Source: Sulfuricella sp. (GTDB taxonomy: Bacteria > Pseudomonadota > Gammaproteobacteria > Burkholderiales > Sulfuricellaceae). Taken from it: a DNA stretch of 64,000 nucleotides. Of this stretch, positions 3,285 through 59,959 are shown piece after piece. Under the pieces are notes generated by a model that saw only the letters and a list, made by a program, of their open reading frames with translations, did not search any database and was not told the DNA's origin. The translations under genes and the position numbers were made by a program. The stretch is taken from contig JAHFRP010000010.1 of assembly GCA_023266195.1 (NCBI GenBank), positions 62,001-126,000 on the forward strand, written 5' to 3'. Position 1 is the stretch's first letter. The number at the start of each line of letters is the position of its first letter.

Positions 3285-4130
3285 CTAATTTTTGCTTGCG
3301 GAAATCCCCAGCAGCCACGGTTCCAGCCGTTGTCCGAAAGCTACGCTGGCTTCGAACGACTGTTTCGCGGGGGCGCCGTGTGTCCGACGCGGCCCGCCTT
3401 CGAACGTGGCGTGATATTCGCGGGGTACATGGATTTCGTCGATGCCGATGCGGTCGATATAACCCGCGAGCTTGCTTTTCCCGGCAATGACCTGTGGGCG
3501 CACCAGGGCGCGCACGATGGCATAGCGGCCGCGGTCGGGATAGCGGGCGCGCAGCCCGGCAAGATTCAATCCAGCATCGACGGCGAAGAGGCGGCTGTTG
3601 TCCTGCTCCTCCCGCCTGGCGTCATCTTGTGCGCGCTTGGCGTTGTCCTTCATTGCCTTGTCGTCGGGCAGAGCCGCGAGCTTGGCAACCTGTTCTGTCG
3701 CGTTCTGTTGGGCGCGTTGCAAGGCCTGCCGGTAGGCTGGCCCATCCAGTTCGAGAACCAGCAACACTTCCTTGCCGAGCTGGCGGACTGACCGGCCTTG
3801 GTTGTCCAGCATGCTTGCGGGCGGGCCGACATCGAAGCCCAGGCTGGCCATCTTGGCTTGATCCAACCAAGCCGGACTTCCGCCGGAGTAGGAGTAATTC
3901 CAGCTCTTTTCGGCCGAAGGAACCCGCCAATTGATCCGCAAAGTGACGCCGCTGTTCTCGCGGTTTATCTCCCAGGCTTGCGGCTGCTGCAGCTCGCGTT
4001 GGGTCAGCTTGAGCATGCTTTCCGGCTCGCCCGAGCGATTCCGGTAAACACCCAGCAATGCCACGGCATTGGTCAGCATGATCAGCGCCATGCCGGCGAT
4101 CAGCGTGTGCCGCCTTGTCCAGTTTTTCAT
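3285..4130 (-). CDS. DUF4824 family membrane-anchored protein
   Basis: 281 residues of unknown function. An N-terminal signal anchor (about residues 8-27) follows MKNWTRRHTL; the rest is a soluble, probably periplasmic region with a Lys/Arg/Gln-rich helical middle. ATG 4130 overlaps the stop of the DUF2157 gene (ATGA, 4127-4130), so the two are translationally coupled. DUF4824 proteins are usually found as partners of DUF2157 membrane proteins. The family call is from memory of the sequence pattern. Confidence 0.8.
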   Translation of the reverse strand: MKNWTRRHTLIAGMALIMLTNAVALLGVYRNRSGEPESMLKLTQRELQQPQAWEINRENSGVTLRINWRVPSAEKSWNYSYSGGSPAWLDQAKMASLGFDVGPPASMLDNQGRSVRQLGKEVLLVLELDGPAYRQALQRAQQNATEQVAKLAALPDDKAMKDNAKRAQDDARREEQDNSRLFAVDAGLNLAGLRARYPDRGRYAIVRALVRPQVIAGKSKLAGYIDRIGIDEIHVPREYHATFEGGPRRTHGAPAKQSFEASVAFGQRLEPWLLGISASKN

Positions 4131-41821: not shown

Positions 41822-41863
41822 GCCCCAGAGACGAATCGAACGTCCGACCTACCCCTTAGGAGG
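41818..41863 (-). other. attL: 3' fragment of tRNA-Arg(CCU)
   Basis: Bases 41822-41863 are identical to 59889-59930 inside the intact tRNA-Arg (42 of 42). On the minus strand the fragment continues into A-CCA (41818-41821), so it preserves the original tRNA 3' end with discriminator A. It marks the left edge of the integrated element. Confidence 0.92.
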
Positions 41864-46846: not shown

Positions 46847-48343
46847 ATGGCCCCTATTGCTGACCGTAGAGGTGGTTATATTTTGTTGAAGCATGTAGAT
46901 GAAATGCGCCGTAAGGTAGTCCAACGCATCACACCGAAGCACAAAGCCGTGTTTGGCCAATTCATGACGCCATTGACAGTGGCCAGCTATCTGGCGTCAA
47001 TGTTCCCGCCCAGCATGTTGCATACTTGCCGTCTACTTGATGCTGGCGCGGGCCTAGGTTCGTTGACGTGCGCATTTTTGGATCGTTGGGTGACGGGTGA
47101 CTTCGGCTTCAAATCAGTGGAGGCGACAGCTTACGAGATCGACGATAATTTGCGTGGTCATTTGGCGCGTCATTTAGCTAGTTACAATGGTGTGAAGCCG
47201 CACATCATCGCGGGTGACTACATCGAGTTAGCAACCGCCGAGGGGGTGCATAGTGAAGGCTATACACATGCGATCCTCAATCCGCCATACAAGAAGATAA
47301 ACAGCAATTCTGCGCATCGGCTAGCTTTGCGCCGTGTTGGCATAGAGACAGTGAATCTGTATTCAGCCTTTGTCGCATTGGCTGTTGCACAGGCGGCGCC
47401 TGGCGGGCAGATCGTGGCGATCATTCCGCGCAGCTTTTGTAACGGGCCGTATTATCGCCCGTTCCGTGACTTCATCCTTGAGCGTGCAGCCATCCGGCAC
47501 ATGCACCTATTCGACTCGCGCAGCAAGGTATTCAAGGACGATGAGGTACTGCAAGAGAACATCATCATCCGGCTTGAGCGCGGCGGCCAGCAAGGACCGG
47601 TGACGATCACGACTTCGACCGATGACAGCTTCGTGGACATTTCCACGAACGAACACCCTTTTGAGCGAATCGTGTTCCCGGACGACCCCGAGCGGTTTAT
47701 CCATGTGCCCACCACTACCGAGAAAAGCACCATTGAGCTATCACCCGCTGTGCGCTGCACGCTGGCCGATCTTGGCATTAAGGTGTCGACCGGGCCTGTG
47801 GTGGACTTCCGCCTGAAAGAACAACTGCGTGACATGCCAGAGGATGGCACCGTGCCCTTAATCTACCCCAGACATCTGAGCATCACCGGGACGGTGTGGC
47901 CGGTGCAGGGCTTGAAGAAGCCGAACGCCATCTTGCGCAACGCCGAGACGGAAAAGTGGCTTTATCCCAATGGCTTCTATTGCGTGGTGCGCCGGTTCTC
48001 ATCGAAGGAAGAGAAGCGCCGCGTGGTGGCGAGCGTGGTTGATCCTGCGGCCTTTGGCGACCATACCGTGCTGGGCTTCGAGAACCACATGAACCTCTTT
48101 CACGAGAACAAGCGCGGCTTGCCGGAGCTGTTGGCCCGAGGGCTGGCCGTGTTCCTGAACACCACCGCCGTGGACGAGAGCTTCCGCCGCTTCAACGGGC
48201 ATACGCAGGTCAACGCAACCGACCTCAAGCTGATGAAGTACCCGAGCCGTGAGGCGCTGACCGAGCTTGGCAAGTGGGCCAAGCAGCACAGCGAACTCAC
48301 GCAGGAAATGATTGATGAACAACTAGGGAAACTGACTGCATGA
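46847..48343 (+). CDS. type II adenine-N6 DNA methyltransferase, PstI/BsuBI type
   Basis: 498 residues; M.PstI and M.BsuBI are about 500. SAM motif LLDAGAGLGSL, catalytic NPPY in AILNPPYKKI, and the FGQFMTP N-terminal motif of gamma-class methyltransferases. The following gene is a PstI/BsuBI-type nuclease overlapping by 4 nt, so CTGCAG is the likely target, with the inner A methylated. An internal start at MRRKVVQ is possible. Confidence 0.92.
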   Translation: MAPIADRRGGYILLKHVDEMRRKVVQRITPKHKAVFGQFMTPLTVASYLASMFPPSMLHTCRLLDAGAGLGSLTCAFLDRWVTGDFGFKSVEATAYEIDDNLRGHLARHLASYNGVKPHIIAGDYIELATAEGVHSEGYTHAILNPPYKKINSNSAHRLALRRVGIETVNLYSAFVALAVAQAAPGGQIVAIIPRSFCNGPYYRPFRDFILERAAIRHMHLFDSRSKVFKDDEVLQENIIIRLERGGQQGPVTITTSTDDSFVDISTNEHPFERIVFPDDPERFIHVPTTTEKSTIELSPAVRCTLADLGIKVSTGPVVDFRLKEQLRDMPEDGTVPLIYPRHLSITGTVWPVQGLKKPNAILRNAETEKWLYPNGFYCVVRRFSSKEEKRRVVASVVDPAAFGDHTVLGFENHMNLFHENKRGLPELLARGLAVFLNTTAVDESFRRFNGHTQVNATDLKLMKYPSREALTELGKWAKQHSELTQEMIDEQLGKLTA

Positions 48344-49296
48344 CAGACAAGAACGACAACATAGAGGCCGCACACCAGATCATCATTTCGCTGGGCCTAC
48401 CCCGAGCGCAGCAAAACGAGCGATCCGCCCTGTCACTGCTGGCCCTGCTGAACCTCACGCCGGGCAAGGCATGGGCACAGGCAGAAAACCCGCTTGTGGG
48501 CATCACGCCGATCATGGATTGGGCACGCGAGCACTATGGCAAGGAGTACGCGCCGAACACCCGCGAGACGTTCCGTCGCCAGACCATGCACCAGTTCTGC
48601 GACGCTGGCGTGGCCCTCTACAACCCGGACAAGCCAGACCGCCCGGTGAACAGCCCGAAGGCTGTCTATCAAGTCGAACCCGCCGCCCTCAAGCTGCTGC
48701 GCAGCTTCGGCACGGTTCAGTGGCACGACAACCTCGCCGCCTACCTAGCCGAGCGTGAAACGCTGGTTGCCAAGTACGCGATGGAGCGCGAGCAGAACCG
48801 CATCCCGGTTGAGATTGCACCGGGGAAGGAAATCACCCTCAGCCCCGGCGAACACAGCGAACTCATCCGTGCCATCATCGAGGACTTCGCGCCCCGCTTT
48901 GCGCCGGGTAGCGTGCTGGTCTATGCCGGTGACACCGGCGACAAGTGGGGGTACTTCGACGCCGCGCTGCTGGCCGAGCTGGGCGTGGACGTGGACTCAC
49001 ACGGCAAGATGCCCGATGTGGTCTTGGACTTCGTTGAGAAAAATTGGCTGCTGCTGGTCGAGTCCGTCACCAGTCACGGCCCGGTCGATGGCAAACGCCA
49101 CGCCGAACTCGCCAAGCTCTTTGCCGGTTCCAAGGCCGGGCTGGTCTATGTGACCGCCTTCCCGAATCGTTCGATCATGGGCCGCTACCTGCCCGAAATC
49201 GCATGGGAGACAGAGGTGTGGGTGGCCGATGCGCCTTCGCACCTGATCCACTTCAACGGCGTGCGCTTTCTCGGCCCCTACGCGACCGAGGGTTGA
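48340..49296 (+). CDS. type II restriction endonuclease, PstI/BsuBI family
   Basis: 318 residues; R.BsuBI is about 316. The family block is VYAGDTGDKWGYFDAALLAE, then LGVDVDSHGKMPDVVLDF and WLLLVESVTSHGPVD, which carry the catalytic D…E-x-V/K-like residues. The N-terminal domain is helical and recognition-related. ATG 48340 overlaps the methyltransferase stop. Expected cut: CTGCAG. Confidence 0.92.
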   Translation: MTDKNDNIEAAHQIIISLGLPRAQQNERSALSLLALLNLTPGKAWAQAENPLVGITPIMDWAREHYGKEYAPNTRETFRRQTMHQFCDAGVALYNPDKPDRPVNSPKAVYQVEPAALKLLRSFGTVQWHDNLAAYLAERETLVAKYAMEREQNRIPVEIAPGKEITLSPGEHSELIRAIIEDFAPRFAPGSVLVYAGDTGDKWGYFDAALLAELGVDVDSHGKMPDVVLDFVEKNWLLLVESVTSHGPVDGKRHAELAKLFAGSKAGLVYVTAFPNRSIMGRYLPEIAWETEVWVADAPSHLIHFNGVRFLGPYATEG

Positions 49297-49300
49297 GGCG

Positions 49301-49867
49301 ATGACGAACAGCCAAGTCCACCCGCAAGGATGGATTTCTCTTTTTATCGCGCCGGAGTACGAAAAGCGTGCCAAGCAGATGCGGGCCAAGCGTGACCGCC
49401 AGTATGGGAACATCTACACCGAGGCAGCCACCGATGAACGATGGGTAGGCGACTTGGGCGAGATGGTTTTCAATTCATGGTTCAATCACGAGGGTATCAA
49501 AGACTTCGAGTGGGTGCTGGACGATGCCGCTGGCCAGCCCGACTTTGTTACCGCGTTAAACATCCGAGTCGGGGTAAAAACGGTCAAGCGCAAGGTGCCT
49601 CCGCGCAAGGATTTTACTGCCCAGATCACCGCCCGCCATGCAAACGAGCCCATCGACCAGTTTTTCTTCATGACCTACGAGATAACCAAGCGCCGCATGT
49701 GGCTGCTGGGTGGTATCCACCGCGAGCGCTTCTTACAAGAAGCCCGCTACTACGGAGCCGGTGAAATGGTGCATGCGAACTACCAAGTTCGACAGGGTCA
49801 TGAGATTTACAACATCGAGCTTACCAAGCTGATCTTGCCGATGGATTGGATTAAGCAAGTGGCATAA
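49301..49867 (+). CDS. R-M-linked protein, possible PD-(D/E)XK nuclease
   Basis: 188 residues, 4 nt after the endonuclease stop, so part of the same operon. GDLGEMVFNSWF (E54), GQPDF (D81) and VGVKTVKRK (K93) follow the order of a PD-(D/E)XK core, with Val in place of the last acidic residue. It could be a second nuclease, an inactive partner or an unrelated protein. No family name recognised. Confidence 0.55.
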   Translation: MTNSQVHPQGWISLFIAPEYEKRAKQMRAKRDRQYGNIYTEAATDERWVGDLGEMVFNSWFNHEGIKDFEWVLDDAAGQPDFVTALNIRVGVKTVKRKVPPRKDFTAQITARHANEPIDQFFFMTYEITKRRMWLLGGIHRERFLQEARYYGAGEMVHANYQVRQGHEIYNIELTKLILPMDWIKQVA

Positions 49868-50480: not shown

Positions 50481-51404
50481 TTACTCCAAGCGTGCTTGCG
50501 CGAGGTGCCAGGCGAGTGCGTCCTTGCTAGGACGTTGCGAAAGTGCGTTTGGTAAAGTGGCTGGGCGCGACGCGAATTCTTCGTATGCGGTACCGTGCAA
50601 ACGGCTGGAAATAACCACTGTTGAAGTGCTTGGGTCGATCCCAATCAGCCCGAGATCGAACAACGTGTGAAGATCGGCACGGAGCAATAGCCCGTTGGTG
50701 ACGTCGTTAGTGTGCGCACCCTGATAGGGGTAAATGTGCGCGGCTTCCAGCGCCTCTTTCACATCGCAGCCGGTAATGGCGCACTTGCCGTCATACGCCA
50801 CCATAAGCGCCCGCCGGAAAGCTGGTTGTCCTTGGCGACGGACAATCGCCGCCAGCGCGCGCTTCCGGGCATCTTCAACGCTTGACGGGGAGAATGCGCC
50901 GGCCTGGTCGGCTTCCTGTGCCGTTTCGCCAAGCGGATCGTTGACGCACTGAAATACGAAATTCGTGGGGTTGCTTCCGCTGTGGCGAATATGGCGAAAG
51001 ATGCCTTCATACCGGAAGCCGGCGCCGGGGTGCTCATACTTCTTGCGCCGGTAGAAAACCATGACTTCCTGCCCCCGAGCCTCGTGCTCGATAAGCTTAA
51101 TATCGGTCCTGCCGCTGGTCTGGCCCTGAAAATAGAGCGTGTCACCGATAAGGCTGTCCTCATAGGCTGTGCGATCAGATGTTTTATGCTCGGTGACGAA
51201 TAGCCAAATCGATTCATATCCCTTGGGGCTGAATATCCCCGTATTGATCGTGGCATCGTTGATCTTGAACAGATCTTGAAGGTCCGCGCGAGTGTAGACT
51301 TTGCCTGGCTCCAAGTAATCACTGGTTCGGGTGGACTGTATCAATATTTGCCTCGCGTCGTTTCCGGCTATGCGTCTACAATATGCCAACCGAGCATACA
51401 GCAT
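50481..51404 (-). CDS. HNH endonuclease with DUF3427-like N-terminal domain
   Basis: 307 residues. N-terminal region: LFKINDATINTGIFSPKGYE, LFVTEHKTSDRTAYEDSLIG, GQTSGRTD, characteristic of DUF3427-like modules found beside nucleases. HNH: KCAITGCD (C208, C213), LEAAHIYPY (H223), NGLLLRADLHTLFDLG (N237, H246). Plausibly a modification-dependent or defence endonuclease. The start is uncertain: ATG 51404 lacks a ribosome binding site and the real start may be further in. Confidence 0.8.
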   Translation of the reverse strand: MLYARLAYCRRIAGNDARQILIQSTRTSDYLEPGKVYTRADLQDLFKINDATINTGIFSPKGYESIWLFVTEHKTSDRTAYEDSLIGDTLYFQGQTSGRTDIKLIEHEARGQEVMVFYRRKKYEHPGAGFRYEGIFRHIRHSGSNPTNFVFQCVNDPLGETAQEADQAGAFSPSSVEDARKRALAAIVRRQGQPAFRRALMVAYDGKCAITGCDVKEALEAAHIYPYQGAHTNDVTNGLLLRADLHTLFDLGLIGIDPSTSTVVISSRLHGTAYEEFASRPATLPNALSQRPSKDALAWHLAQARLE

Positions 51405-51522
51405 TAATACGTTTGCGATAACAGGTCAGGCGCGACTTTGTTTGAAAGCGCGCGCCGACGTGAGCGGTCAACGGGGAAAATGGACCCAATTAATTTGCCC
51501 ATAAGTGCAAGGATCCAAAAAA

Positions 51523-53739
51523 ATGAGTGTTCAACATGTAGACGACATCCTGTTCGGGTATCTAATTCCGAATCTTTCGGGGGCGAGGTTTGAGGCGTTA
51601 GCTAAGGTACTTTTCGCCGCAGAGATTGGTGAAGGCTTCGTGCCGTTGGGTGGTATGCATGATGGGGGAGCCGACGGTTTCTTAGATGTCCCGGTCGCTG
51701 AAGGGAAAAAGCCGGGCACTTTTTTTCAATTCAGCGTGACGGACCAGAGTCGGGTGAAAACGAAAATCCGGCAAACGATTGAGGCACTAAGGAATGCAGG
51801 CCGTGCACCAAAACAGCTTGTTTACGCTACCAACATATCGCTTCCAAAGCAGGACGTCATTCGAGAAAAGGTGTTTGATGATTACGAAGTCCTACTGATC
51901 GTCAAAGACGCGGAAAAGCTGAAGCAGCTAGTCAATTCTGAGCCTCGCGCGAACGAGGCCTTCCTTGAGTTTTTCGCGGCTGACATTATGGCGGTGAAGC
52001 ACAGTGCGGAAAATCTGCGCGGCTCGGTCAACCAGTTCGTTAGGGATCCGACGGTTTTTGCTTTCCTTGATTACGAGTTGAAAGATCGCTTCGCCAGAGA
52101 TCACCTCGAAGATCGCATTTTGGATTCTCTGATTTACTGGGCGTTACGAGAAACGGACCCTGTCGTAGGGAAGTATTTGAGCCGCGAGGAAATCGCGGAG
52201 GCGATCAACGCGGTGTTCCCGACGGCCACTTCGGTTCTCGCACCCAAATTGAGTGCAAGATTGACAGAACTTTCGAAGAAATCCATGGATGGGGAACGAG
52301 TAAGGCATCACAAGTCGAAAGACTCATACTGCCTTCCGTTCATAATGCGTAAGCAACTAGCGGAGAGGGCGCTTGCTGAATCCAGATTACAGGATGATTT
52401 TATTGATTCAATAAAATGTCGTCTGAGGGCGCAGGCCAAACAATCACTCTCGGAGGACTCGGAGCGGTTAGGCGCTTCCCTGGTATTTGATTCAGTCCAT
52501 GACTACTTTGTTGAGCAAGGGCTTGTTCTGGCCGCATATCTGGAAAATAAAGTTAGCGTTCTCTCCATTTCGGATCAAATTGTCGAGCAGCAGGTAGAGC
52601 GTGTTCTAGCAAAATCGCCCGATAAGGATCGCGTGTCGCCGATGCTGATTGAAGACGGGTTGAACGTTCTTAGGGGTGTGTTTTATGCGCCATCAGATGT
52701 GGAAAGACTTTATCTTGGGTATCTAAGCAGAACCGCTTTGCTATTCATGACGCTTCAGAAAGCACCTAAGATGGTTGAGTATTTCAACCAGATGGGAGGC
52801 AATTTCCGCCTGCTAATCGGCTCGGACATGCTGGTCAAGGCGATGTCGGAGCAGCAGCTGCCTCCAGAGCGAAGACAGGTGGAAATTCTCTTGAAGGCCG
52901 GCAGGGAACTTGGGGCCAAACTTGTCCTGACCGAACCGGTGGTCGACGAGGTTTTCACTCACCTTCATGCAGTTGATCTCGAATACCGGAACCACTATCT
53001 TCCCAACGAAGCATATCTTTCCGCAAGGGAAGTGTCTGAGTGCGATCGCATTCTCATTCGGGCCTATTATTACACTCGATTCGAGGGCAAGAAGGTTGCC
53101 TGGGACAAGTTTATCAATCAGTTCCTAGATCCGATGGCCCTACGTTCCAAATCTGAGAAGGGGCGTCGGGAATTGGTAGCATTGCTCGTTCAGCGTTTCG
53201 GTATGGATTATCTCTCCAGGGAAGATATCTCTTCTGGGGTCAACCAGGATGAAGTGAATAACCTCGCTGAAAAACTCGTCGAAACGCGGGCTGCGAAGAA
53301 CCAAGAACTCTCTTATAACGATGCATTGATGGTACATGCTGTGTATCGGCAGCGGAAATTGCATGGGGAGCAGGCTATTTATGATGGATTCGGCTATCGC
53401 TCATGGTGGCTGACCAAGGAAACACGCGTGCTCAGTCATACGGTACCGCTTGTCATAAAGGAGGGCGGCGTTCCATACATCATGCGGCCCGAGTTTCTTC
53501 TGAATTTCATCGCATTAGCCCCCAAGGCTGCACATGTCCGAAAATCATTCAGGGATCTGCTGCCAACTACGGTGGGTCTGCAATTGGGCCAACATCTTAA
53601 ACCCGAGGTGATGCACCAGCTGCTCTCTGGTACAGCGGAGTGGGCTTCTCTGTCCCCAGAACGCGTGGCCGTAATGATCGGGGAAAAAGTCAATCGGTTG
53701 AAGCATGATCGGCTTAAACAGTACGTAGCGAAGGTTTAG
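51523..53739 (+). CDS. 738-residue protein with PD-(D/E)XK-like N-terminus and PIN-like C-terminus
   Basis: N-terminal 130 residues: FEALAKVLF (E24), GGMHDGGADGF (D51), TFFQFSV (Q69/S71) and KQLVYATN, the order of Mrr/restriction-type PD-(D/E)XK domains that use Q in place of E. Residues 200-300 are helical and include a possible winged helix. C-terminal: LLIGSDML (D435), LVLTEPVVDEVF (E471, E476), LSYNDALMVHAVY (D600) and WWLTKETRVL (631), the acidic spacing of a PIN-like nuclease. Both assignments are inference from motif order. Divergent from the HNH gene across 118 bp. ATG 51523 follows AAGGATCC. Confidence 0.6.
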   Translation: MSVQHVDDILFGYLIPNLSGARFEALAKVLFAAEIGEGFVPLGGMHDGGADGFLDVPVAEGKKPGTFFQFSVTDQSRVKTKIRQTIEALRNAGRAPKQLVYATNISLPKQDVIREKVFDDYEVLLIVKDAEKLKQLVNSEPRANEAFLEFFAADIMAVKHSAENLRGSVNQFVRDPTVFAFLDYELKDRFARDHLEDRILDSLIYWALRETDPVVGKYLSREEIAEAINAVFPTATSVLAPKLSARLTELSKKSMDGERVRHHKSKDSYCLPFIMRKQLAERALAESRLQDDFIDSIKCRLRAQAKQSLSEDSERLGASLVFDSVHDYFVEQGLVLAAYLENKVSVLSISDQIVEQQVERVLAKSPDKDRVSPMLIEDGLNVLRGVFYAPSDVERLYLGYLSRTALLFMTLQKAPKMVEYFNQMGGNFRLLIGSDMLVKAMSEQQLPPERRQVEILLKAGRELGAKLVLTEPVVDEVFTHLHAVDLEYRNHYLPNEAYLSAREVSECDRILIRAYYYTRFEGKKVAWDKFINQFLDPMALRSKSEKGRRELVALLVQRFGMDYLSREDISSGVNQDEVNNLAEKLVETRAAKNQELSYNDALMVHAVYRQRKLHGEQAIYDGFGYRSWWLTKETRVLSHTVPLVIKEGGVPYIMRPEFLLNFIALAPKAAHVRKSFRDLLPTTVGLQLGQHLKPEVMHQLLSGTAEWASLSPERVAVMIGEKVNRLKHDRLKQYVAKV

Positions 53740-58554: not shown

Positions 58555-58961
58555 TGCTGCTCTGGAGCCTGGACGAAACAGCAAAGCAGCTCGGGGGCCT
58601 CTCCGCCCGATCCGTGAGGCGCATGATCGACCGCGGGGAGCTGCCAACCGTCCGGGTTGGTCACTTGGTGCGTATACCGGCGGAAGCGGCGAGGGAGTGG
58701 GTGGAAAGGCACATGCAGACCGCGCATAATCAGGATTGCGTGGGGCGTGGCGCGGGAAAAGGAGGTAACCCATGCCATACAAACGCAAAGATAGTGAAGT
58801 TTGGTGGGTCAGCTACACCGACCCAAGCGGCCAGAGAATTAGGCGCTCTACTGGCACAACCGACCGGCGTGAAGCCGACGCCCTTGAAGCAAAGTGGAAA
58901 CTCGAAGCGTACCGGGCCGCAAAGTGGGAAGAGCAGCCGGGCCGCAATTTCGACGAGCTAA
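58554..58961 (+). CDS. excisionase-like MerR/HTH_17 protein
   Basis: 135 residues; HTH in LWSLDETAKQLGGLSARSVR then MIDRGELPTVRVGHLVRIPA, typical of Xis-type and helix-turn-helix 17 proteins. The last 60 residues overlap the integrase gene in another frame and are probably unstructured. Likely directs excision with the integrase. Confidence 0.75.
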   Translation: MLLWSLDETAKQLGGLSARSVRRMIDRGELPTVRVGHLVRIPAEAAREWVERHMQTAHNQDCVGRGAGKGGNPCHTNAKIVKFGGSATPTQAARELGALLAQPTGVKPTPLKQSGNSKRTGPQSGKSSRAAISTS

Positions 58962-59860
58962 TGCTCCTCTACATGCAAATCATGCTGAGGGAAAGGCGCC
59001 AGAAACCGGCGTCGCTTCGGGCAGCCGCGCGGCACCTCTACGAAGCGTTTAGCGGGCGTGACCTCATCGGCATGAAAAGCCACGATGTGCGGGGTTATAT
59101 CCAGAAGCGCCGCGCGGAGGGCGTGGCAGCGGGCACGATCAACAAGGAAATCGGCTTGTTGTCGGCGGCGATTAACTACGCTCGCCGTGAATGGGGCTGG
59201 GAGCTGGTCAATCCGGTTTCCGGCTGCAGGTTGCGCGAACCGGAAGGGCGGGTACGGTGGATCAGTCGCGCCGAGTCGGATGCTCTTATCCGCGCGGCGG
59301 AAAAGGAGCCAAGATCGCCACACCTGCCGGATTTCATCCGGCTGGCGCTGCATACCGCATGCAGACGGGGCGAACTGCTCGGGCTTGAGTGGCGGAGGAT
59401 TGATCTCCAGGCGGGTCTAATTTACCTGGAGGCCGAACACACCAAGGCCGGCAAGCGCCGCAGTGTGCCGCTGAACGCGATAGCCAGAGCCGCCATCATG
59501 GGGCGGCTGCGCTTCCGGGCGCAGTTTTGCCCGGCGTCGCCCTGGGTATTCGCGAGCAAGAGCGGCGGCAGAATCGGCGATATCAAGCGGTCGTTCGCCG
59601 GCGCCTGCAAAAAGGCGGGGATCGCGGATTTCCGCATCCATGACCTTCGCCACACCTGCGCGGCCTGGCTGGTGACCGCCGGTGTCCCGCTGGCCGAGGT
59701 GCGCGACTTGCTTGGTCACAGTACGATCAAAATGACTGAGCGATACGCGCACCTTGCCCCGGAAAACATCAGGGCTGCGGTGGCGGTTTTAGAGTCTCCG
59801 TCACGTTTTGGTCACGGTGCGGAAATGGACAGTGGCGCGGTTGCGAAAATGGTTCTGTAG
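58772..59860 (+). CDS. tyrosine-type site-specific integrase
   Basis: 362 residues. Catalytic residues: Arg in TACRRGELLGLEW (about 194), HxxR in RIHDLRHTCAAW (about 290), His in LLGHSTIKM (about 315) and nucleophile Tyr in TERYAHLAPE (about 323). SAM-like N-terminal core-binding domain. Excellent ribosome binding site AAAAGGAGGTAACCC before ATG 58772. It ends 28 bp from attR in tRNA-Arg, as expected for the enzyme that inserted the element. Confidence 0.95.
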   Translation: MPYKRKDSEVWWVSYTDPSGQRIRRSTGTTDRREADALEAKWKLEAYRAAKWEEQPGRNFDELMLLYMQIMLRERRQKPASLRAAARHLYEAFSGRDLIGMKSHDVRGYIQKRRAEGVAAGTINKEIGLLSAAINYARREWGWELVNPVSGCRLREPEGRVRWISRAESDALIRAAEKEPRSPHLPDFIRLALHTACRRGELLGLEWRRIDLQAGLIYLEAEHTKAGKRRSVPLNAIARAAIMGRLRFRAQFCPASPWVFASKSGGRIGDIKRSFAGACKKAGIADFRIHDLRHTCAAWLVTAGVPLAEVRDLLGHSTIKMTERYAHLAPENIRAAVAVLESPSRFGHGAEMDSGAVAKMVL

Positions 59861-59884
59861 CCCATTGACGCATAAGGAAATTAT

Positions 59885-59959
59885 GGCGCCCCAGAGACGA
59901 ATCGAACGTCCGACCTACCCCTTAGGAGGGGGTCGCTCTATCCACTGAGCTACTGGGGC
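59885..59959 (-). tRNA. tRNA-Arg (anticodon CCU)
   Basis: Acceptor arms GCCCCAG/CTGGGGC pair, D-arm GCTC…GAGC, anticodon stem ACCCC/GGGGT with loop CTCCTAA, T-arm GGACG/CGTCT with TTCGATT. CCA encoded (complement of 59885-59887), discriminator G. The element is integrated at its 3' half, which the element restores. Confidence 0.96.
59889..59930 (-). other. attR core within tRNA-Arg
   Basis: 42 bp identical to attL (41822-41863), running from the anticodon loop to acceptor position 72. Crossover occurred within this segment, typically in the anticodon stem-loop for tyrosine integrases. Confidence 0.92.

Follow-up and report, generated by a model that had tools for sequence, protein, structure and literature searches.

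A 738-aa protein encoded in a 64,000-nt stretch of a Sulfuricella sp. genome (contig JAHFRP010000010.1, positions 62,001 to 126,000; hereafter the window) combines an Mrr-like N-terminus, a helical middle and a PIN-like C-terminus, carries Mrr-type and altered PIN-type residue patterns, sits within a mobile element and is without a fixed partner gene. Tentatively, and somewhat short of calling it probable, we read it as a protein of defence type that acts as a single gene, stands alone, moves horizontally and joins an Mrr-like effector to an altered PIN-like sensor. For the window copy, the residue comparisons appear to favour one nuclease with the PIN fold kept as a sensor or binder, whereas a dual nuclease would fit clade C of the family, which includes copies on Escherichia coli plasmids. 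We infer folds, nuclease activity, sensing and a defence role for the protein, the last because of its mobility, its rarity and some of its neighbours.

The open reading frame (51505-53739, plus strand) comprises 744 codons counted from GTG, and the likely start is the ATG at 51523, with an AAGGA ending 9 bases upstream. Between the window and its relative L002, residues 421-660 differ at codon positions 1/2/3 in 44/22/140 places, from which we conclude that the gene evolves as a protein. The GC content is 0.503 in the ORF and 0.597 in the surrounding element. The residues singled out in the initial annotation (E24, D51 in GGADG, Q69-F-S71, D435, E471, E476, D600 and WWLTKETRVL) all lie where it had placed them (Table 1). 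They go beyond chance, since E24, D51 and Q69, together with K81, are invariant in 9/9 N-termini and E476 in 11/11 rows with a letter at that position.

Table 1. Features of the 738-aa gene and of the element around it, in window coordinates
Feature	Position	Strand	Basis
Outer 42-bp direct repeat (attachment site copy)	41822..41863	.	exact repeat
PstI/BsuBI-type R-M pair	46847..49296	+	Pfam and PADLOC models
MTase of PstI/BsuBI-type pair	46847-48343	+	Pfam and PADLOC models
REase of PstI/BsuBI-type pair	48340-49296	+	Pfam and PADLOC models
HNH endonuclease, 307 aa, divergent neighbour	50481..51404	-	HNH_2, 8.3e-17
738-aa protein, Mrr-like / helical middle / PIN-like	51523..53739	+	ORF list, relatives, alignments
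Mrr-like PD-(D/E)XK domain, residues 1-150	51523..51972	+	hhalign to 17 Mrr_cat domains
E24 (N-terminal domain)	51592	+	
D51 (N-terminal domain)	51673	+	
Q69 (N-terminal domain)	51727	+	
S71, where a lysine is usual (N-terminal domain)	51733	+	
K81 (N-terminal domain)	51763	+	
Helical region, residues 151-420	51973..52782	+	secondary structure of model
PIN-like domain with long insertion, residues 421-660	52783..53502	+	model, profiles, alignment
G433 (PIN-like domain)	52819	+	
D435 (PIN-like domain)	52825	+	
E476 (PIN-like domain)	52948	+	
D600 (PIN-like domain)	53320	+	
E633 (PIN-like domain)	53419	+	
C-terminal tail, residues 661-738	53503..53736	+	sequence comparison
Tyrosine integrase of element	58772..59860	+	PF00589, 7.5e-34
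tRNA-Arg	59884-59959	-	tRNA gene call
Inner 42-bp direct repeat, within tRNA-Arg	59888..59929	.	exact repeat

Searches with the whole protein returned no full-length match in Pfam, NCBIfam, PHROGs or PADLOC; hmmscan matched no Pfam or NCBIfam model to the window protein, and PADLOC-DB 2.0.0 gave partial or weak matches only. By sequence, no relative of the window protein was found in the PDB at E up to 10, and the best hits there with two family profiles (E 0.2 and 0.15) appear to be chance matches. The whole-chain structure model is weak (mean pLDDT 66.9, pTM 0.39), with block means of 68-89 across residues 431-610, and a second model reached a pLDDT of 40.1. Foldseek with the whole-chain model gave no significant match (best E 0.29), the weak ones including PIN chains (VapC-type, PRORP) and a Can2 chain. 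The tail (661-738), modelled at pLDDT < 50, is the best conserved of the four regions, with 87% identity to L001, 88% to L002 and 64% to L026.

For the N-terminus, a nine-row family profile scored 43.1 against 17 Mrr_cat domains (hhalign; 6 of the 23 Mrr_cat matches left out), compared with a maximum of 16.7 in 150 column shuffles; an earlier control, in which 1/100 shuffles had scored 133.6 without explanation, was repeated with these 150. The Mrr-like relationship of the N-terminus in the initial annotation is thereby supported. Similarity of the profile extended to one fetched Mrr-type protein and to the N-terminus of an unrelated long ORF in genome G684. Among single sequences, the window protein is matched over residues 13-137 by the PADLOC REase-TIR model (9.4e-7) and is not matched by Mrr_cat (PF04471) at the Pfam gathering score of 21 bits, to which the best family member, L028, comes close (9.6e-4, 19.7 bits).

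The Mrr active site is an E, D, Q pattern, and the catalytic lysine of PD-(D/E)XK enzymes can move to the next helix. The fetched Mrr domains show the pattern, with a lysine two residues after the Q/E in most. Our family shares with Mrr_cat these residues, the order of strands and helices (strands 39-42, 50-54 and 66-71, helix 75-91 and strand 98-103 in the model) and a profile similarity well above shuffles. It differs in that position 71, where the usual lysine would stand, is occupied by S or T in 9/9 rows and that an invariant lysine, K81, is found at the beginning of the helix that comes next and may replace the Mrr lysine. As every row lacks the Mrr lysine, the N-terminal domain might be inactive as well. 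The helical middle (151-420) matched no family in Pfam, PADLOC or NCBIfam; its modelled helices (195-207, 221-231, 233-250) and strands (261-263, 268-270) could form a winged helix.

The long ORF in G684 is a 1076-aa open frame, partly fetched (L036, 1-2094, minus strand), and close to its N-terminus it has an Mrr-like domain related to that of the family. It suggests that the Mrr-like domain may be a mobile effector head. G684 and a further genome, G518, were not counted as carriers of the family, as their matches are other proteins and cover the N-terminal domain only.

On modest evidence, the C-terminus appears to be related to PIN domains. In the model, strand 428-432, helix 434-445, strand 466-470 and helix 471-492 are followed, after a long insertion, by helix 594-613 and strand 626-630, overall a PIN-like order. 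Over its first half, the nine-row profile scored 26.8 against three PIN_12 (PF16289) domains (probability 9.8, E 0.0033, 53 columns), with maxima of 17.8 in a first control of 100 shuffles and 20.4 in 150. Clades A and B alone scored 22.2, as high as 1/100 shuffles (maximum 22.5), and clade C alone 18.3, above all 100 (maximum 18.1). The PIN-like C-terminus proposed initially is modestly supported by the full profile and by the order of elements in the weak model, but clade subsets lie at the edge of their shuffles. This weaker signal makes the readings without defence or without a PIN fold slightly more likely, and those of a sensor or a dual nuclease slightly less so. In Pfam, PIN_12 was found below the cut-off of 32 bits in 2/8 members scanned and in 3/5 C-termini (L026, L027 and L035, best 13.4 bits), where these weak matches are rightly placed; the window protein, P0001 and L009 had no such match, and hhalign of the region with the single PIN protein of G748 aligned 17 columns only.

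The PIN active site consists of four acidic positions. These read D-E-D-D in clade C, G433-E476-D600-E633 in clade A, to which the window belongs, and G-E-S/T-Q in clade B. Because the alignment is near-ungapped over 425-445 (L-L-I-G-S-D in the window, I-W-L-D-T-T/S in clade C), the canonical first aspartate corresponds to G433, which is conserved in 7/7 rows of clades A and B and is D in 4/4 of clade C. D435, initially taken for the first PIN acid, sits two residues past that position, in place of T/S, and is itself invariant in the seven A and B rows. With PIN_12 the window protein shares E476 and, in the weak model, the strand and helix order; it differs in G433 for the first Asp and E633 as the fourth acid. 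D600 and E633 are invariant in 4/4 clade A rows, but clade B has S/T for D600 (3/3 rows) and Q for E633 (2/2 with a letter, and likewise in the separate piece L007), so that in clade B the expectation that homologues keep the acidic residues is not borne out. The glycine at the first position makes two active ends doubtful in the window copy. Even so, the PIN-like part is better conserved than the N-terminus, with identities of 0.75 (L001) and 0.79 (L002) against 0.63 and 0.62, a contrast that is small for L026 (PIN-like part 0.62 and tail 0.64 versus 0.57).

Relatives of the same layout were found in 12 other carriers, 10 of which could be placed in the three clades; the closest, L001 and L002, are 71% and 73% identical to the window protein. 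In a midpoint-rooted tree of 11 rows, a branch separates each clade from the others (support 94/96 for A, 100/99 for B and 100/100 for C), and the deepest join was flagged as a long-branch risk. L035 is included in this alignment and tree, the tree omits the N-terminal piece of L027, and the Gordonia C-terminal fragment L032 was kept out of the alignment. For G781, the N-terminal piece (L008/L010) was set aside, and a letter at position 24 in the C-terminal row of that copy is an alignment artefact. Broken copies are common: frames are interrupted in G781 and G1250, the G748 copy is split over contigs, that of G865 is cut by, or lacks its N-terminus at, a contig end, the Gordonia copy is a fragment, and G994 (L028/L041) is cut by a contig end, so that its N-terminus alone was used.

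Within the genomes, plasmids and phages searched, the family is rare and patchy. Whole-genome searches, which used overlapping samples, found it in 2/22 genomes at family level, 4/399 at order level, 2/369 at class level and 1/398 at phylum level, own genome included in each; a broader profile raised the phylum count to 4/398, namely the own genome and G401 with the family and G684 and G518 with the N-terminal domain only. In the order of G141, a sample without the own genome, 3/195 carried it. Neither the window protein nor a clade B protein matched any of 72,556 plasmid records, and a clade C protein gave 10 matches, a Gordonia fragment and nine from Enterobacteriaceae of at least 99%, one of which covers 37%. 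A search of E. coli that needs roughly 85% identity found the clade C form in 5/5426 genomes, identical in all five and plasmid-borne only. A phage origin was considered and rejected: none of 50,697 phage records matched the window or the plasmid protein, and no copy was confirmed in viral contigs by a pattern-based search, which could miss distant ones.

The window copy sits on an element of 18,108 bp bounded by exact 42-bp direct repeats, one of them within a tRNA-Arg gene, and an integrase and a PstI/BsuBI-type pair were found on it, in agreement with the mobile setting next to an R-M system described initially. Directly after the PstI-like REase lies a 188-aa ORF (49301-49867), possibly the third gene of the R-M operon, with no match in Pfam, PADLOC or NCBIfam. 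Elsewhere the settings vary. In most carriers no scanned defence gene stands beside the relative of the 738-aa gene. The clade A copy in G1032 is followed by genes for an Eco57I-type MTase and an XhoI-type REase; no R-M pair was seen among the ORFs listed for the remaining carriers, most of them not model-scanned. On plasmids, a Ppl-like TrlF gene adjoins the copy in 4/4 Enterobacteriaceae records viewed, and the TrlF-family AAA gene in L031 (10179-12800, minus strand) matches the Ppl model at 6.2e-35. L002 has a RelE-type gene nearby, and the copy in G748 lies close to PIN-type genes. The G141 copy is flanked on either side by glycosyltransferase genes, that of G401 adjoins a UDP-GlcNAc 2-epimerase gene, and that of G1250 lies near two tRNA-Lys genes.

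Two loci deserve separate mention. Partial ABC-F 3′ ends (L038, 3058-3623, 4629-5194 and 10478-10548) flank the G1032 gene together with its R-M pair; copies agree at 92% over 567 bp, with a 30-bp exact match at 3587/10494. The ABC-F gene, which we take to be ettA, may be a hotspot for insertions; in G748, too, the clade B copy (L014) lies downstream of an ettA-like gene. The frame-broken clade B copy of G781 (L012, 7488-9430) stands between rpoC and rpoB, an unusual site for cargo that may reflect an assembly error.

The initial annotation had paired the 738-aa protein with its HNH neighbour. The head-to-head arrangement is as described, with a gap of 118 bp (51405-51522). As to the DUF3427-HNH label, Pfam recovers HNH_2 but DUF3427 was not found on the window protein; an S. 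meliloti homologue, 51% identical to the window HNH, is annotated DUF3427. Residues 40-156 show an SRA match below cut-off (E 0.0034) and the C-terminal half a match to a phosphorothioate-restriction model, also below cut-off (5.1e-16, 58.6 of 180 bits); on account of these sub-threshold matches the HNH protein may read modified DNA. The proposed pairing itself is not conserved. When 16 further fetched loci, representing 12 distinct carriers, were searched by tblastn, the HNH gene adjoined the family in 0/12, and the MTase, REase, integrase and 188-aa ORF were likewise missing at all 16, an absence that weighs less at short or contig-cut loci (L001 with 6.7 kb, L007, L011, L014 and L041). The two best plasmid homologues of the HNH protein sit beside other genes, and HNH-domain-only matches elsewhere, present in 9/22 genomes of the taxonomic family (own included), do not adjoin the 738-aa gene, the one in G748 being on a different contig from its relative. 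A divergent two-gene defence system, for which the head-to-head genes speak, is thus highly improbable, and the 738-aa protein stands without a fixed partner gene.

In the mechanism we propose, the Mrr-like domain would be the likely effector and cut DNA, as its E24, D51 and Q69 suggest, with K81 as the candidate lysine; the helical, perhaps winged-helix, middle would be the coupling part; and the PIN-like domain, with its active site altered at G433 and E633, would sense nucleic acid (RNA), or offer a platform for its binding, and so restrain the nuclease until infection. We read the PIN-like end in this way because its site is altered and yet it is better conserved than the N-terminus. That this is a so far undescribed family of single-gene defence, in which a PIN ribonuclease turned stepwise, from D-E-D-D through G-E-D-E to G-E-S/T-Q, into a sensor controlling an Mrr-like nuclease whose catalytic lysine was displaced to K81, seems to us somewhat unlikely. 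Unvarying D435, D600 and E633 in all four clade A rows would be surprising if the domain served only for binding, and together with D435 throughout clades A and B they would suit a dual nuclease, one chain with both ends cutting, in which 435 took over from 433 as the first metal ligand in the window's clade. Clade C fits such an enzyme as well, with D-E-D-D in every row and E24, D51 and Q69 in the three rows that have an N-terminus. It is harder to square with the canonical glycine of the seven A and B rows and with the loss of D600 and E633 in clade B (L007 included), and we regard it as unlikely.

Two further readings leave the altered PIN-like sensor aside. The Mrr-like end might cut foreign-methylated DNA while the rest reads DNA, a type IV-like, modification-dependent restriction enzyme that elements would keep as a weapon against other elements. 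The relationship to Mrr and the R-M neighbours in two carriers (window and G1032) point that way; Pfam found no known DNA-reading domain, however, and the remaining carriers' ORF lists, mostly not model-scanned, show no R-M pair, so that we rate this as distinctly improbable. Quite unlikely, too, is a role outside defence, be it as an RNA or DNA processing factor, a protein with a non-PIN C-terminal fold or a decaying gene. Copies amid ordinary genes (G781, rpoC/rpoB), the incomplete or broken copies in G781, G1250, G748, G865, G994 and Gordonia, and the modest PIN evidence would accord with it, but the strong third-position bias in clade A and a patchy distribution, confined in E. coli to plasmids of five genomes, run counter to it.

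Can2 is a CARF-fused PD-(D/E)XK nuclease. The title of PMC7969007 names it as a nuclease of dual specificity in CRISPR defence, and a Can2 chain matches our model weakly in Foldseek (E 1.0). The PADLOC model of the short-Argonaute-associated REase (PDLC02416) resembles our protein in its N-terminal nuclease-type domain (profile positions 3-123 of 572); the rest of the model is unmatched, and no Piwi or Argonaute family occurs among nine window proteins scanned. SPARDA (PMC12205087) is the short-Argonaute-associated system compared. Fusions of Mrr-type REase domains with domains associated with HEPN or AbiJ, described in PMC3710099, also unite a DNase-type part with an RNase-type or abortive-infection part in one chain; the partner there is HEPN or AbiJ, and here PIN-like. 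NTP-dependent conflict systems use Mrr-like REase or PIN effectors, the PIN domains being combined, in the part of PMC7159879 at hand, with FHA or NACHT and not with Mrr. Pfam found no NTPase in the 738-aa protein. The Ppl/TrlF-family ATPase is a neighbour of the plasmid copies, but is a separate gene on the opposite strand.

No single Mrr-PIN protein is named in the titles and abstract beginnings searched, a scope outside which most subscription papers and preprints fall, and the plasmid accession of the clade C copy is mentioned in no paper within that literature. The family, a rare and scattered mobile cargo, may represent an as yet unstudied phage defence of a single gene. It has often been proposed that enzyme domains of immune proteins lose catalysis to become sensors; to our knowledge, apparently intact and altered forms of such a domain are seldom seen in one family. 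As the apparently intact form resides on E. coli plasmids, the idea of a nuclease turned sensor is testable in laboratory strains.
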